Source of the DNA: Chloroflexota bacterium
GTDB taxonomy: Bacteria; Chloroflexota; UBA11872
DNA: 64,000 bases
NCBI GenBank assembly: GCA_026706485.1
Contig: JAPOYR010000004.1
Location: 1-64,000 of the forward strand
Direction of reading: 5' to 3'
Notes under the pieces: generated by a model
Told to the model about the DNA's origin: nothing
What the model saw: the letters and a program-made list of their open reading frames with translations, nothing else
Databases searched by the model: none
Position numbers and translations under genes: made by a program
Shown here: positions 47,240 through 53,980 of the stretch, one piece after another
Layout of the letters: every line of letters starts with the position of its first letter
How positions within the stretch are numbered: the first letter of the stretch is position 1

Positions 47240-48937
47240 CTACCGATACCCGACGTGGACCTCCAGCTTCTCCAACGTGAGCCGCTCGGTGGTCCCGTCC
47301 GGCGGGTTGACCCACACGCCCACCAGGTTCTCCCCGTGCGCCAGGAACGCCGGCTTGACCTCGAAGACCAGCCACCCGTCCTCGACCGTCGGCGGCGGCA
47401 GCAGGATGTTGTTGATCCGCAGCTCGATGCGCTCGACCACGTCGGTCAGCGGCGGTCGGTTGTAGAGGTCGCGGTATTTGGTCGCCAGCAGCACCGGGTC
47501 GAGCCGGTGGCCGTGCGACCCATCCTCGTCGGACAGCACCGCCCGCACAGTGATTGAGCGCACGGCCTCGGCCTCCGCGTTCACGTCGTCGCCGACCCAC
47601 ACACGGACGAACGTGTCCACCTTGCCGTCGCGGTAGTCGCTCGACTGATTGGGCGGCCCGGGCCACTGCTCCTTGGGCTGCGGCGTGCCGGTGGGGATGT
47701 TGGGCAGCAGCGCCGGCAGCGGCGCCAGCATGTTGGTATTGAGCGCCATCGCGCGCGGCGTGCTCCAGTCCTCGGGCGGCGGGATCATGAAGTGCCCGCC
47801 GCCGCGCCGCTCGGCGAAGAACACCTTGTCGGTGCGCCGCAGCGTTTCGGGCGCGCCCAGCTCGCGCTGCGCCTGCATGCAGCCGCGCCAGTAGTCGGTG
47901 TCCATCAGCTCGATGTAGGTGCCGGCGCGCCGGGCCGATTCCGGCGTGCGGTCGGGGTAATTGAAGGTGCACACGCCGTCGGCGCCCTGGTGCAGCCAGT
48001 TGGCCGTCGCGCCCCGCTGCACCTCCAGCGAGGGATGGAAATAGCCGTCGCTGGAATGGTGCGCGTCGATGCACGGGAACAGCTTCACCGGAAATCCCGC
48101 GGTCAAGCGGCGGAAGTCGCGCACGTCCACGTCGAAGGTGCGGCAGCCGAGGATCAGCAGGTCCACCAACCCCTCGCGCACCCAGGTCTCGATGTCGATG
48201 CCGGTGGCGTGGCAACTCACCACGTCGGGCGGGATCTGCACGCTCAGCAGATAGGGCCGCCCGCGCACGCGCTCCCGCTCCAGCAGCACCGCGCGCACCG
48301 TGCGCATCAGGTCGTTCAGGTGCTCGCGCAGCTCCCACTGCTGCCCCGCCGGCAGCAGGATGTCCAGGCGCGCGAAGTCGAGATTGATGCCGTCGTGGTC
48401 GAAGCGCCAGGCCACCTCGCGCACGATCTCGGCGATGTGGTCCCGCACGCCCGGCTCGGCGTAGTTCAAGTAGCCGCCCTCGACGGGGCCGTAGGGCCAC
48501 ATGAGCCACTCGGGATGCGCCGCCTTGATGGGGATCCTCATGGGCACGATCTTGGTCCCGTCCCAGCCCACGTCGTAGCCGTTCATGGCGAGCTGATAGA
48601 AGGACTCGATGCCGCGGCGCTGCGCCTGCTCGAGGGCCAGCGACGGAATCTCGACGCCGGCCGCGACCCAGTTCTTGATCCACTCCCCGACCGGACGCAC
48701 GTCGCTCTCGAACGAAGCCTCTAGGCCGCCCTCCGACCACCAGATGATGGTGTCGATCTGCGTGCCCGGCATGTCCTGCAGGCTCAGCTGCGCGTCCCAC
48801 CACTTGGCCAGCTGCTCGGGCGGAGGCGGCTGGCCCACGAAGTCCTTGGGGTCGCCGGTGATGTCATAGCGCACCACGATCCGCCGCCGCCGCTCCACCG
48901 CGGCCAAATGCTCGGCCGAGAGCTCGAATGGCTGCAT
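47240..48937 (-). CDS. putative TIM-barrel glycosidase-like protein, unassigned
   Basis: Protein of 565 residues, cytosolic, no signal peptide. The first ~390 residues show the alternating pattern of a (beta/alpha)8 barrel resembling hypothetical glycosyl-hydrolase families: IIWWSEGG, FDHDGINLDFARLDIL (a likely acidic catalytic strand), LLILGCRTFDVD, FPCIDAHHSSDGYF and GADGVCTFNYPD. The last ~120 residues look like a beta-sandwich domain. I cannot assign a CAZy family. Convergent with the amidohydrolase. Confidence 0.65.
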   Translation of the reverse strand: MQPFELSAEHLAAVERRRRIVVRYDITGDPKDFVGQPPPPEQLAKWWDAQLSLQDMPGTQIDTIIWWSEGGLEASFESDVRPVGEWIKNWVAAGVEIPSLALEQAQRRGIESFYQLAMNGYDVGWDGTKIVPMRIPIKAAHPEWLMWPYGPVEGGYLNYAEPGVRDHIAEIVREVAWRFDHDGINLDFARLDILLPAGQQWELREHLNDLMRTVRAVLLERERVRGRPYLLSVQIPPDVVSCHATGIDIETWVREGLVDLLILGCRTFDVDVRDFRRLTAGFPVKLFPCIDAHHSSDGYFHPSLEVQRGATANWLHQGADGVCTFNYPDRTPESARRAGTYIELMDTDYWRGCMQAQRELGAPETLRRTDKVFFAERRGGGHFMIPPPEDWSTPRAMALNTNMLAPLPALLPNIPTGTPQPKEQWPGPPNQSSDYRDGKVDTFVRVWVGDDVNAEAEAVRSITVRAVLSDEDGSHGHRLDPVLLATKYRDLYNRPPLTDVVERIELRINNILLPPPTVEDGWLVFEVKPAFLAHGENLVGVWVNPPDGTTERLTLEKLEVHVGYR

Positions 48938-49014
48938 GGGGTGTTGTCTTTCGGGCTGGCTTAGCCTTCCGCTGGAACTATAGGAGGCCCCGGAACACTC
49001 CGAACTCCCCGAAG

Positions 49015-49099
49015 TGTCATTCCGAGCGCAGCGAGGAATCTACGCCGCACCGGAGACGGCGCAGCGTCCTTAGATTTCTCACGTTCGTTCGAAATGACA
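49015..49099. repeat. 85-bp inverted-repeat element, family C, copy 3
   Basis: Left end TGTCATTCCGAGCGCAGCGAGG, right end TTTCTCACGTTCGTTCGAAATGACA read in two parts; centre ~24 bp unique. Confidence 0.8.
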
Positions 49100-49123
49100 T
49101 TTCCAGGGCTCACTGCCCGTCGG

Positions 49124-49186
49124 CCCAGGCTACGCGCAGCCTGGGAGACTCGACCCGGGCCGGTCCCACGCTGCGCGCAGCGGGGG
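49124..49186. repeat. two family E palindromes in tandem
   Basis: CCCAGGCTACGCGCAGCCTG at 49124-49145 and CCCACGCTGCGCGCAGCGGG at 49165-49186, both slightly imperfect. Confidence 0.7.
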
Positions 49187-49259
49187 CGCACCGGCGTACC
49201 GGGCAGCGCGCGGTTAGGCGCTCTTGATTCCTCACGTCGTTTGGAGTGGTAAGCGGGGG

Positions 49260-49285
49260 TGGATTCCCGCCTCCGCGGGAATGAC
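49260..49285. repeat. family D hairpin repeat
   Basis: GGATTCCCGCCTCCGCGGGAATGACG upstream of the T-box transcript. Confidence 0.75.
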
Positions 49286-49322
49286 GGAGTCAAGATGACC
49301 CAGCACCTAGAACGCCAATCTC

Positions 49323-49351
49323 TTGACCCACCCCTGATCCCCGGCGACACT
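49323..49351 (+). promoter_or_regulatory. candidate promoter of the T-box transcript
   Basis: -35 TTGACC at 49323-49328 and GACACT at 49346-49351, 17 bases apart; this would start transcription near 49358 and give a ~330-base leader. Confidence 0.55.
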
Positions 49352-49357
49352 CACCTC

Positions 49358-49640
49358 TGAAGAAACATCGGCGTTGACGGAGACACGTCGCGGCGATCGG
49401 ACCGCCGAGCGAGCCCGGGTGGGTGTGAGCCGGGCGCGGGGCCGCCGCCGTTGGCATCGCTCCTGAGCTGCCGGCCGAACGCTCGCTCCGGCGAGCCAGT
49501 AGACCCGGTCGGGGTAGCGCCCCGTTAGCGGCGCGGTCGTCCACCACGGTGGGCGGCGGTTGAGTGGTCCGGCGTCGGCCGGACAATCGCGGGTGGCACC
49601 GCGGGTCATGAGCCCGTCCCGGAGGGGACGGGTTTTTTGT
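49358..49640 (+). ncRNA. T-box leader (tRNA-sensing riboswitch)
   Basis: The T-box core CGGGTGGCACCGCG at 49590-49603 matches the 14-base consensus, with the TGGC bulge (49594-49597) that would pair with an uncharged tRNA NCCA end. A terminator hairpin follows directly. Upstream leader sequence is long enough for Stem I; ATC at 49396-49398 within a GC-paired stretch is a candidate isoleucine specifier, but I could not fold Stem I with certainty. The leader precedes alaX and then ileS, so sensing of tRNA-Ile is the simplest reading. The 5' limit is approximate. Confidence 0.8.
49613..49638 (+). terminator. T-box intrinsic terminator
   Basis: CCCGTCCC - GGAG - GGGACGGG followed by six T. An eight-bp perfect stem immediately after the antiterminator sequence indicates transcriptional attenuation. 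Confidence 0.88.
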
Positions 49641-49684
49641 TGCGGCGCCGCGCGCCAAGGAGCATGACGGGACGGCGAGTGAGG

Positions 49685-50407
49685 ATGGCGACCGAGGATC
49701 TCTACAGCACCGACAGCTACGTGCGGACCTTCGAGGCCGTGGTGCAGCGGGCCGGTCCGGACGGCGTGGTGCTCGACCGCACCGCCTTCTACCCGCGCGG
49801 CGGCGGGCAGCCGAGCGACACCGGCGAGCTGCGCGCCGGGAATGAGGTCTGGCCGGTGACCCGCGTGCAACGGCGCGCCGGCGATATCGCCCACGCCGTC
49901 GAAGGCGAGCCGCCCGAGCCGGGCACGCTGGTGACGGGCAGCCTGGACTGGGAGCGGCGCTTCCGCTTCATGCGGCTGCACACGGCGCTGCATGCGCTCT
50001 CGGGCATCGTCTGGACCGGCTGGAACGCCGACGTGACCGGCAGCAACATCGCCGACGACGGCAACCGCGCCCGCATGGACTTCTCCCTCGAAGGCATCCG
50101 CATCAACGAGATCAAGCAGGAGGTCGAGGACCAGCTCAACGCGGCTCTGGCCGACGGGCGCGAGGTCAAGGTCTACACCCTCCCCCGCGAGGAGGCCTTC
50201 CAGCTGCCGGACCTGATCCGCACTCATGTGAACCTGGTCCCCGAGCACATTCGCCAGATTCGCATCGTGGAGATCGTGGACCTGGACCGCCAGGCGGACG
50301 GCGGCACCCACGTGGCCAACACCGCCGAGGTCGGAGCGGTGCGCATCGTCAACGCGGTCAACAAGGGACGCATCAACCGGCGTCTCGAAATTGCCCTGGC
50401 GGACTGA
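49685..50407 (+). CDS. alanyl-tRNA editing protein (AlaX family)
   Basis: Protein of 240 residues related to the AlaRS editing domain, which deacylates mischarged tRNA-Ala. Visible: AFYPRGGGQPSDTGEL, the zinc-site HTALHALS (HxxxH) and GGTHVANTAEVG. The usual Cys ligand before GGTH is replaced: QADGGTHV instead of a CGGTHV form, so the third ligand is Asp or lost. Start chosen at ATG 49685 (MATEDLYSTDSY); an in-frame ATG at 49664 sits too close to AAGGAG. It is directly behind the T-box terminator, so its expression depends on the riboswitch. Confidence 0.82.
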   Translation: MATEDLYSTDSYVRTFEAVVQRAGPDGVVLDRTAFYPRGGGQPSDTGELRAGNEVWPVTRVQRRAGDIAHAVEGEPPEPGTLVTGSLDWERRFRFMRLHTALHALSGIVWTGWNADVTGSNIADDGNRARMDFSLEGIRINEIKQEVEDQLNAALADGREVKVYTLPREEAFQLPDLIRTHVNLVPEHIRQIRIVEIVDLDRQADGGTHVANTAEVGAVRIVNAVNKGRINRRLEIALAD

Positions 50408-50528
50408 CGGCATGAGTTGCGGCGACTCGACATCGACTTCGGTGGATTCCCGCCCCGTATCAAGTACGGGGCAGGCTCTTCGCGGGAATGACGGATGGGG
50501 CCGGAATGTCGGACAAGTGCTGTTGGGA

Positions 50529-50573
50529 CCCCTCACCCCAACCCTCTCCCGCAAGGGGAGAGGGGGCCGGACC
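50529..50573. repeat. family B hairpin repeat
   Basis: CCCCTCACCCCAACCCTCTCC with GGGGAGAGGGGGCCGGACC, nearly the same as the copy in the FGE gene. Confidence 0.85.
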
Positions 50574-50602
50574 GGGCGAGTCTCAGTCCGGCCGCTCTCA
50601 CC

Positions 50603-50688
50603 TGTCATTCCGAACGAACGTGAGGAATCTAAGGACGTTGTGCTGTCTGTCCGCCCCTTAGATTCCTCGCCTGCGGCTCGGAATGACA
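50603..50688. repeat. 86-bp inverted-repeat element, family C, copy 4
   Basis: TGTCATTCCGAACGAACGTG on the left, CCTGCGGCTCGGAATGACA on the right; essentially the reverse orientation of copy 2. Confidence 0.82.
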
Positions 50689-50785
50689 GAGAGGGGACGC
50701 CAACGAACAAAAGGCGGGGACTCAGCACGTCGTGTCGAGCCCCTTCTCCCCTCGTAGGAGAAGGACACGATGAGGGGGTTTCGAC

Positions 50786-53700
50786 GTGAGCTCTAGCAAC
50801 CCTCCAGCCAAGCCACCCGACGCGGCCTCCCCCTTCCAGCCGCTGCCGGACGAGTTGGACTTTCCCTCCATGGAGCGCCGCATTCTGGACTTCTGGGCCG
50901 AGGCGGGCGCGTTCGAGAAGCTGCGCGCCAAGAACGCGGACGGCCCGCGCTGGTCCTTCATCGACGGCCCGATCACGGCCAACAACCCCATGGGCGTGCA
51001 TCACGCCTGGGGCCGTACTTACAAGGACGTCTACCAGCGCTACCGCGCCATGCGCGGCTATCACCAGCGCTATCAGAACGGCTTCGACTGCCAGGGGCTC
51101 TGGCTCGAGGTGGAGGTGGAGAAGGAGCTGGGCTTCGAGACCAAGCGCGACATCGAGGCCTTTGGGCTGGAGGCCTTCGCCGACGCCTGCCGCGAGCGCG
51201 TCGACACCTACTCCGCCATTCAGACGTCGCAGTCGGTGCGCCTGGGCCAGTGGATGGACTGGGACGACTCCTACTACACCCACTCCGACAGCAACATCGA
51301 GCACATCTGGGGCTTCCTGCGGCGCTGTCACGAGCGTGGCTGGATCGAGGTGGCCCAGCGCGCCATGCCCTGGTGCGCGCGCTGCGGCACGGCGCTCTCG
51401 CAGCACGAGCTGATCGACACCTACCAGGAAATCACCCACGACGCGCTCTACGTGCGGTTGCCGCTGCACGGCCGGGACAACGCCTGGCTGCTCGTCTGGA
51501 CCACCACGCCCTGGACCCTGGCCGCCAACGTCGCCGCCGCGGTCGATCCCGAGCTGACCTACGTCGAGGTCGAGATGGCCGACGGCAAGCGCTACTTTCT
51601 GGCCGAAGCCACGCTGCAGGAGGCGATCGGCGACGACGCGCACGAGGTCGTCGGCCGCATCACGGGCGCGGACATGCTCGGCTGGACCTACGACGGGCCG
51701 TTCGACCACCTGCCCGCCGTCGCCGACACCGAGCACCGCGTGATTCCGTGGAAGGACGTGGGCGCCGACGAGGGCACCGGGATCGTGCACATCGCTCCCG
51801 GCGCGGGTGAGGACGACTTTCGCCTCAGCCAGGAGCTCGGCCTGCCGGTGCTCGTGCCCATCGACGAGAACGGCGTCTACGTGGAGGGCTACGATCGGCT
51901 CACCGGGCGCGACGCGCGCCAGGTCGCAAACGACGTCATTGACGACCTGCGCGGGCGTGGGCTGCTCTACCGGGCGCACCGCTTCGAGCACCGCTATCCC
52001 CACTGCTGGCGCTGCCAGGAAGAGCTGGTCTTCCGCGTGGACGACGAGTGGTTCATCCGCGCCGACGAGGTGCGCCAGCCGATGCTGGACGCCGCCGCCA
52101 CGGTCCACTGGGTCCCCGACTACGCCGGCGCGCGCATGGCCGACTGGCTGCGCAACATGGGCGACTGGAACATCTCGCGGCGACGATTTTGGGGCCTGCC
52201 GCTGCCGTTCTATCCCTGCGGGGACTGCGGCCACCTGACCGTCATCGGCTCCAAGGCCCACCTGGAGGAGCGCGCGGTTTCCGGCCTGGACGGGCTGCGC
52301 GAGCTGCACCGCCCCTGGATCGACGAGGTGGTCATTCGTTGCGAGGGCTGCGAGGCGCCGGTTCGGCGTATCGACGCGGTCGGCGACGCCTGGCTGGACG
52401 CCGGCATCGTGCCGTTTTCCACCCTGGGCTACCTGGAGGGCAGCGAGGAGTTCCAGCGCTGGTATCCCGCCGACTTCATCACCGAGATGCGCGAGCAGAT
52501 CCGGCTGTGGTTCTACTCCATGCTCTTCATGAGCGTCACGCTGGAGAACCGCTCGCCCTATCAGTCCGTGTTCGTCTACGAGAAGCTCAACGACGAGACC
52601 GGCCGCGCCATGCACAAGAGCTGGGGCAACGCCATCGAGTTCGGCGAGGCCGCCGAGCGCATGGGCGCGGACGTGATGCGCTGGCTCTACGCCGGGCAAA
52701 ACCCGCTCTACAACATCAACTTCGGATACGGCCCGGCGGGCGAGGTCAAGCGGCGCATGCTGACCCTGTGGAACGTCTACGCGTTCTTCGTCACCTACGC
52801 CCGCCTGGACGAGTTCGACCCGACGCAGCCGGAGGTGCCGCTGGCCGAGCGCCCGGACCTGGACCGCTGGGTGCTGTCACAACTGCAGACGCTGATCGAC
52901 ACGATGACCGAGGCCTTACACACCTTCCACGTGCACCGCGGCCAGCGCGCGGCTCGGCGATTCATCGAGGACGTCTCGAACTGGTACGTGCGGCGCGGGC
53001 GGCGGCGATATTGGAAGTCCGAGGGCGACCTCGACAAGCGCGCCGCCTACCAGACGCTCTACGAAGTGCTGACCACGCTGGTGCGCCTGCTGGCGCCGGT
53101 GATGCCGTTTTGGACCGAGGACATCTACCAGAACCTGGTGCGCGGCGTGGACCCGAGCGCCCCGGAGAGCGTGCACCTGACCGACTGGCCGCAGGCCCGC
53201 GACGACCGGCGCGACCCGGGGCTGGACGCCGCCATGGCCGAGGTGCAGCGGGTGGTGCGGGCCGGTCGGGCCGCGCGCAACGCCGCCAACGTCAAGCTGC
53301 GCCAGCCGCTGCGGTCGGCGCTGATCCAGGTGCCCGACGACGCGGCCTGGGAGGCGGTGCAGGCGCTCGAGACGCACGTCCTGGACGAGCTAAACGTCAA
53401 GGCGCTGGAGCGCATGGCGTCCGAGCATGAGCTGGTCGAGTTCCAGATTCAGCCCAACTACCGAAGGCTGGGTCCGCGCTTCGGCCCACGCGTGAAGCAG
53501 GTCGCCGCCGCGCTGGCCGCCTTGGATGCAGCCGACGCCGTGCGCGAGTTGGATGAGCGCGGCGAGCTGAAGGTGGACCTGGACGGCGCGGTCGAGACGC
53601 TCACTCCCGACGACCTCAACGTGCGCCGCACGCCGCGCGAGGGCTTCGGCGTCGCCGAGCAGGACGGGGTGATCGTGGCCGTCGCGACGGACGTCGACGA

Positions 53701-53980
53701 CGCGCTGGCCCGCGAGGGCCTGGCGCGCGAGCTGGTCCACGCCACCCAGGGCCTGCGCCGCGACGCGGGCTTAGAGGTCTCAGACCGGATTCGGCTTTGG
53801 ATCGGTGGCGGCGGTGAGGTGGAACCGACGCTAGCGGAGCACCAGGCCTGGATCGCGGGCGAGGTGCTGGCCGTTGTGGTCAACGGCGGCGAGCCGCCGC
53901 CCGACGCGGCCGAGGCCAAGCACACGCTCAACGGCCTGCCGGTCCGGATTCAATTGAGCCGCGCGGCCCCGCCCGACTAG
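50786..53980 (+). CDS. ileS: isoleucyl-tRNA synthetase, variant signature motifs
   Basis: Protein of 1064 residues charging tRNA-Ile. The HIGH-box equivalent is GVHHAWG (about 70-76, after GPITANNPM); the editing domain has TTTPWTLAANVA and DEGTGIVHIAPGAGEDDF; GDWNISRRRFWG marks the IleRS branch; CGDCG and CEGCE look like zinc knots. The KMSKS loop is replaced by AMHKSWGN (Met609 onward), keeping only the Lys-Ser core. A C-terminal ~250-residue tail contains the tRNA-binding extension typical of the long IleRS type. GTG start at 50786. A distant LeuRS/ValRS identity is less likely given the T-box and the ISRRRFWG motif. Confidence 0.88.
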   Translation: MSSSNPPAKPPDAASPFQPLPDELDFPSMERRILDFWAEAGAFEKLRAKNADGPRWSFIDGPITANNPMGVHHAWGRTYKDVYQRYRAMRGYHQRYQNGFDCQGLWLEVEVEKELGFETKRDIEAFGLEAFADACRERVDTYSAIQTSQSVRLGQWMDWDDSYYTHSDSNIEHIWGFLRRCHERGWIEVAQRAMPWCARCGTALSQHELIDTYQEITHDALYVRLPLHGRDNAWLLVWTTTPWTLAANVAAAVDPELTYVEVEMADGKRYFLAEATLQEAIGDDAHEVVGRITGADMLGWTYDGPFDHLPAVADTEHRVIPWKDVGADEGTGIVHIAPGAGEDDFRLSQELGLPVLVPIDENGVYVEGYDRLTGRDARQVANDVIDDLRGRGLLYRAHRFEHRYPHCWRCQEELVFRVDDEWFIRADEVRQPMLDAAATVHWVPDYAGARMADWLRNMGDWNISRRRFWGLPLPFYPCGDCGHLTVIGSKAHLEERAVSGLDGLRELHRPWIDEVVIRCEGCEAPVRRIDAVGDAWLDAGIVPFSTLGYLEGSEEFQRWYPADFITEMREQIRLWFYSMLFMSVTLENRSPYQSVFVYEKLNDETGRAMHKSWGNAIEFGEAAERMGADVMRWLYAGQNPLYNINFGYGPAGEVKRRMLTLWNVYAFFVTYARLDEFDPTQPEVPLAERPDLDRWVLSQLQTLIDTMTEALHTFHVHRGQRAARRFIEDVSNWYVRRGRRRYWKSEGDLDKRAAYQTLYEVLTTLVRLLAPVMPFWTEDIYQNLVRGVDPSAPESVHLTDWPQARDDRRDPGLDAAMAEVQRVVRAGRAARNAANVKLRQPLRSALIQVPDDAAWEAVQALETHVLDELNVKALERMASEHELVEFQIQPNYRRLGPRFGPRVKQVAAALAALDAADAVRELDERGELKVDLDGAVETLTPDDLNVRRTPREGFGVAEQDGVIVAVATDVDDALAREGLARELVHATQGLRRDAGLEVSDRIRLWIGGGGEVEPTLAEHQAWIAGEVLAVVVNGGEPPPDAAEAKHTLNGLPVRIQLSRAAPPD

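Follow-up and report, generated by a model that had tools for sequence, protein, structure and literature searches.

A putative isoleucine T-box leader upstream of an alaX-ileS gene pair in Chloroflexota

T-box leaders are known before synthetase genes, amino-acid biosynthesis genes and transporter genes. The closest known systems are transcriptional T-box leaders of ileS (RF00230), such as those of Dehalococcoides (PMC2494555). The locus analyzed here lies in a 64,000 nucleotide stretch of Chloroflexota DNA (the window). It differs from the Dehalococcoides leaders in that alaX, and not ileS, is the first gene behind the T-box, and in that the bulge sequence in the window's genus is UGGC and not UGGU. 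The AlaX protein of the window has a full-length fold and a near-complete profile match in common with the AlaX-M enzymes (Pyrococcus, PDB 2e1b and 9iuw; NF040865). Unlike these, it is under the NCBIfam cut-off, has an Asp for the Cys of CGGTH and is located under an Ile T-box. CtdA, a canavanyl-tRNA-Arg deacylase under guanidine riboswitches, is likewise a free-standing editor where the riboswitch ligand points to the editing problem (PMC10018355). However CtdA has another fold (B3/4) and another riboswitch class, and its activity has been measured. Searches of the open-access literature gave no description of alaX regulation by a T-box, which may have been noticed elsewhere, e.g. in T-box databases.

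The locus displays the following features:

49323–49351, + strand: putative promoter TTGACC-N17-GACACT (-35 box 49323–49328, 17-nt spacer, GACACT 49346–49351)
49371–49468, + strand: T-box Stem I (RF00230 alignment)
49456–49458, + strand: ATC (Ile) specifier, complementary to the GAT anticodon of tRNA-Ile (RF00230 alignment)
49590–49621, + strand: antiterminator (RF00230 alignment)
49610–49638, + strand: intrinsic terminator hairpin and U-run, stem 49610–49635, overlaps the 3′ strand of the antiterminator
49685–50407, + strand: alaX, predicted AlaX-type trans-editing protein of 240 aa, HTALH...DGGTH (Pfam, NCBIfam, predicted fold)
50408–50785, + strand: alaX-ileS spacer of 378 bp, holds a genome-wide palindromic repeat at 50444–50491
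50786–53980, + strand: ileS, isoleucyl-tRNA synthetase with GVHH replacing HxGH (TIGR00392, 738 bits; start GTG 50786)

An Ile T-box of the transcription-attenuation kind very probably controls an alaX-ileS operon at this locus. The observations behind this are the sequence elements, the specifier, the exclusive hairpins, and the conserved leader and gene order. In the proposed mechanism, transcription would start just upstream of position 49365 and the ATC specifier displayed by Stem I would be read by the GAU anticodon of tRNA-Ile. With a bound tRNA-Ile that is uncharged, pairing of its CCA end to the bulge UGG would let the antiterminator form, and the polymerase would move on into alaX and ileS. 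With charged tRNA-Ile the terminator would form. A shortage of charged tRNA-Ile would thus raise the level of a free-standing editing protein along with that of IleRS. The response to tRNA-Ile, the read-through from alaX into ileS in the window's species and the deacylase activity of AlaX are predicted parts of this model.

The sequence-only reading had proposed a T-box in this region and was to be given up if a covariance search showed no Stem I or specifier. When the 551-bp leader was searched alone, RF00230 was the best match, full-length and with Stem I and specifier. The match is at 49365–49624, covers model positions 1–219 of 219 and scores 36.8 bits (E-value = 1.2e-6), which is below the RF00230 gathering score of 93; Rfam at the gathering threshold lists no T-box across the whole window. 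When 12 loci from relatives were scanned together, 10 displayed T-box matches of 34.7–85.4 bits, although the match in L046 covers model positions 157–216 only, and no T-box match was found in L058 and L061. Four T-box matches were obtained across the whole source genome (3.37 Mb, 13 contigs). With its model match, Stem I with specifier, bulge and competing terminator, the alaX leader is confirmed as a T-box at the level of sequence prediction.

Position 49323, given earlier as the start of the region, coincides with the 5′ end of the -35 box TTGACC. Of 18 f1 leaders examined (the window, L043–L057, L059 and L060), 16 keep the promoter hexamers and their spacing, which are absent in L048 and L055. 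The two genera of the family have different spacer sequences while the boxes are kept. The promoter of the leader scores under the cut-off of a general promoter scan.

In the RF00230 alignment the specifier-side helix of Stem I is formed by pairing of GGAG (49379–49382) with CUCC (49460–49463), and the last pair of this helix is G-C in six and A-U in nine of 15 leaders. The first helix of the antiterminator consists of CGGG (49590–49593) and CCCG (49618–49621). It is followed by the bulge UGGCACC at 49594–49600, which conforms to the UGGNACC of T-boxes, and by a second helix of GCGGG (49601–49605) with CCCGU (49613–49617) which has a G-U pair at the foot of helix A2. All 15 leaders compared show 100% pairing in both helices and keep the G-U pair. 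The T-box core described earlier ahead of the AlaX-type gene is present as CGGGTGGCACCGCG at positions 49590–49603. The terminator shares CCCGUCCC with the antiterminator, and the two hairpins are thus mutually exclusive. The intrinsic terminator was also part of the earlier description and is the sole one found in the region 48900–51000. The terminator hairpin by itself is not significant (shuffles average 1.0); its position is.

The leader is highly conserved. Across six congeneric species, 251 of 276 positions are invariant (91%), compared with 9/150, 7/100 and 0/100 in flanking non-coding stretches and 34/378 in the alaX-ileS gap, i.e. 0–9% for most of the flanking non-coding DNA. Invariant positions number 33/64 in the promoter stretch (49301–49364) and 27/44 in the stretch just 5′ of alaX. 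For these six species, 59% of the third codon positions of alaX are invariant. Comparison of both genera of the family shows conserved promoter boxes, specifier and antiterminator within a changed surrounding sequence. In a pair-count test with 15 leaders, 84.4% of cells are paired versus at most 60.4% when the structure is slid; this test is limited by the MAFFT alignment, which places Stem III and the distal helices (three helices) poorly between the two genera. Covariation in close relatives is weak, with two pairs changed on both sides, a number reached by 218 of 500 shuffles. Minimum-energy folding of the leader is no better than that of shuffles (z = -1.24, 24 of 200 as good).

The gene order was analyzed in a first sample of 81 genomes and in a phylum sample of 301 genomes. 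The family of the window is represented by 19 members in the 81-genome sample, and in every one of them alaX is found shortly 5′ of ileS. From both samples 114 alaX genes were examined, which are the D-type and f14 genes; the seven genes of the CGGTH kind (L076–L082) and a few listed matches (frames of alaS size in G034 and G037) are outside of this number. In 61 of the 114, a co-oriented ileS follows within 2 kb, and these represent 12 of 27 families. A T-box core precedes alaX in 58 of the 61 linked genes, the exceptions being L058, L061 and L062, and is found in two of the remaining 53 (L259 and L268). The contig of L259 ends 0.5 kb after alaX. Locus L268 (genome G200) displays an ATC T-box before alaX and no ileS in the following 2.6 kb. 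At 20 ileS loci without alaX the T-box core, where present, precedes ileS. No other regular neighbor of unlinked alaX genes was seen, the largest clusters comprising 10 of 115 loci.

Among named genomes (the best 80 of 588 loci), 14 loci are linked within 2 kb and 11 of these have the core. All 14 bear Chloroflexota names. Thermogemmatispora tikiterensis and a Thermoflexus MAG are among the named carriers; T. tikiterensis T81 (L157), a named strain, has the T-box-alaX-ileS arrangement. A tree of 148 alaX proteins, with the T-box loci L259 and L268 scored as linked, requires 10 changes of the linked label (mean of shuffles 36.2), and at least four are forced by starred branches. The 10 changes, with at least four forced, indicate that the linkage was gained or lost several times within the phylum. 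The predicted arrangement Ile T-box-alaX-ileS is conserved in many Chloroflexota, and the putative co-regulation of alaX with ileS is well supported. Conservation of an Ile T-box ahead of an editing gene that itself lies directly 5′ of ileS would link translation quality control to isoleucine supply.

alaX most likely starts at the ATG at position 49685. This start was chosen because the sequence MATE sits at the same place in genus g2. The protein displays similarities over the Pfam cut-off to tRNA-synt_2c (PF01411, 44.9 bits) and tRNA_SAD (PF07973, 37.8 bits), and the assignment of the gene after the T-box as AlaX-type thus stands. The match to NCBIfam AlaXM (NF040865) covers profile positions 1–233 of 234 and scores 278.6 bits, below the cut-off of 300. 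Among six other D-type or AlaX-like relatives L064 alone passes this cut-off (305.5), and the C-type L079 scores 179.0 bits. In AlaX, zinc is bound by the residues HxxxH and Cys/His. In the window the corresponding motifs are HTALH and DGGTH, with an Asp in place of the Cys that AlaXM proteins have in addition to HxxxH. Due to this Asp and the score under the cut-off, the protein is classed as AlaX-type and not as an AlaXM equivalog.

An AlphaFold2 model of the AlaX protein has a mean pLDDT of 93.6. The top Foldseek matches in the PDB are AlaRS editing domains and AlaX-M, with TM-scores by query of 0.82 to 9iuw and 0.80 to 2e1b. As modeled, the AlaX of the window is a member of the AlaRS editing-domain family with an AlaX-M-like full-length fold. 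At the Asp position, the PDB sequences compared, 9iuw among them, and AlaRS editing domains carry the CGGTH Cys. HxxxH...DGGTH is found in nearly all AlaX relatives, whether linked to ileS or not.

ileS is the sole IleRS of the genome over the family cut-off. GVHH or AVHH is present in 47 of 48 Chloroflexota IleRS sequences read, alaX-linked or not; the one sequence without it, L069, has a translated stretch that starts after the motif. GVHH is therefore ruled out as a partner trait of alaX. The window's IleRS is of the G/AxHH kind; this motif is described in IleRS2, and the HxGH-to-GVHH swap is tied to mupirocin hyper-resistance (PMC10485003). A eukaryote-like IleRS of Streptomyces is described as without tRNA-dependent pre-transfer editing (PMC4861432). 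A broken IleRS editing domain for which AlaX would substitute was not seen, since GTGxVHxAP..G is present in 17 of 17 IleRS looked at and WTTTPWTL in 15 of the 17, the pattern not being found in L069 and L083. A stricter editing pattern missed five ileS-only sequences (L084, L086, L091, L094 and L096), and of these L084 and L086 were rechecked and have the variant GDID. The CP1 motifs persist in IleRS whether or not its gene is linked to alaX. In the source genome a broken AlaRS editing domain was likewise not seen. The cis-editing sites of AlaRS and IleRS thus look intact by sequence.

The distance between alaX and ileS is 378 bp (stop at 50407, GTG at 50786), as had been stated. In the congeners G001 and G005 about 17–23 bp lie between the aligned parts, and in many relatives the distance is 8–38 bp or the genes overlap. 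A separate ileS promoter was to count against the proposed operon; a promoter scan and a comparison of congeners showed no promoter-like site between alaX and ileS. The repeat-bearing gap might lower read-through into ileS.

A palindromic repeat, GGATTCCCGC..GCGGGAATGA, is located at 49261–49284 and at 50444–50491, and one copy is thus between alaX and ileS. Its pattern has 97 matches genome-wide, and the reversed control has none.

The specifier was read in the glyQS register, where six bases separate it from GAGC. For the window this gives ATC. A tRNA-Ile(GAT) is present in the genome; its anticodon is complementary to the specifier and its discriminator is A73. As a register control the leaders of trpE, cysE and ilvB in the same genome, genes named from their translated products, were read by eye and gave TGG, TGC and GTC. 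These leaders (L002, L003 and L001) are the other T-boxes of the genome, and each matches the discriminator of its tRNA (G73, T73 and A73, respectively). All 71 T-boxes before alaX read ATC, 69 of 69 parsed automatically and L044 and L267 by eye; at least five of the 71 loci are the same place taken twice, e.g. L103 and L048. The specifier is also ATC in every T-box that could be parsed at ileS loci without alaX. The sequence-only reading had left a choice between ATC and an Ala codon. The window sequence and the 71 T-boxes settle this as ATC, and an Ala specifier is ruled out by the register control together with these 71.

A wider form of the Ala reading, where an Ala or Ser codon is read, alaX is the main target and ileS is downstream by accident, is highly improbable. 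A shift by one base gives Ser codons, TCG in the window and TCC in its congeners, and G73, which bacterial tRNA-Ser has, would pair with the C of UGGC. AlaX proteins also act on Ser- and Gly-tRNA-Ala (review PMC11295145). However ATC is constant while its neighbors vary, the register that gives ATC also gives the expected trpE and cysE codons, ileS loci without alaX have the same specifier, and 64 of the 71 T-boxes have T as the N of UGGN, i.e. UGGU which matches A73. N is C in seven, namely the window, its five congeners and L254. Here lies the strongest point against normal T-box function in the window's own species, as predicted from sequence. The bulge at 49594–49597 is UGGC in six of six species of the genus, which gives a C-A mismatch with A73 as read from the tRNA-Ile of the window's genome. 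The NCCA end thereby loses one of its four pairs, as N does not match the discriminator. In addition, the GAA before the specifier is altered to TGG, CTGA or CTGG in the genus, and the model score is low. The T-box could therefore be decaying or insensitive in this genus, with fixed attenuation or a weak response. This is considered unlikely, as the leader is more conserved than the third codon positions of alaX in the same species, and the antiterminator and terminator are kept. The mismatch and the phylum-wide conservation of the arrangement had both escaped the sequence-only reading.

The role of AlaX is a further question. AlaX may be a passenger, i.e. an ordinary Ser/Gly-tRNA-Ala editor that shares in a general induction through the ileS leader and does not act on tRNA-Ile. 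This is compatible with the Ile T-box operon, and we lean slightly towards it. Linked and unlinked genes have the same HxxxH...DGGTH, nearly half of the sampled alaX genes are not beside ileS, tRNA-Ile has no G3:U70 and the editing-site motifs of IleRS are kept. According to a review, AlaXp-M and -L recognize G3:U70 of tRNA-Ala and AlaXp-S is without tRNA specificity (PMC11295145), and free-standing editors often have no clear tRNA specificity or depend on association with a synthetase (PMC7337962). However the linkage is conserved in 12 families and in at least four places of the tree, beside this one synthetase. Also, AlaRS of the genome keeps its editing site (HSATH...CGGTH) and an extra Ser/Gly-tRNA-Ala editor would thus be partly redundant. 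Mischarging by AlaRS through G3:U70 in tRNA-Ile was considered as well and is ruled out, as tRNA-Ile(GAT) has G3-C70. A more tentative and rather doubtful proposal is that the AlaX behind the Ile T-box is a tRNA-Ile trans-editor (“IleX”) that removes small wrong amino acids, with the Asp metal-site variant, with tRNA specificity possibly borrowed from IleRS, and beside an IleRS2 whose proofreading may be limited to post-transfer editing. Such a trans-editor would suit this IleRS, but the kept CP1 motifs, the lack of G3:U70 in tRNA-Ile and the intact editing site of AlaRS speak for no evident need of it. Proofreading capacity would, on this proposal, rise when isoleucine is short and mischarging is likeliest. 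We know of no free-standing editor of tRNA-Ile, and “IleX” would be the first. With regard to the Ile T-box operon itself, the arrangement suggests, but does not prove, that an AlaX-type proofreading protein acts on tRNA-Ile. The Ile T-box context may serve as a hint on the substrate of a large AlaX group and predicts activity on mischarged tRNA-Ile.

Diverged forms of AlaX are found in f14, where the residues H, H, D and H are kept and the GGGQ motif is lost. Loci L067, L068 and L302 show a strongly diverged AlaX-like protein (tree branch 2.26, GGGQ changed) that is encoded between an ATC T-box and ileS.
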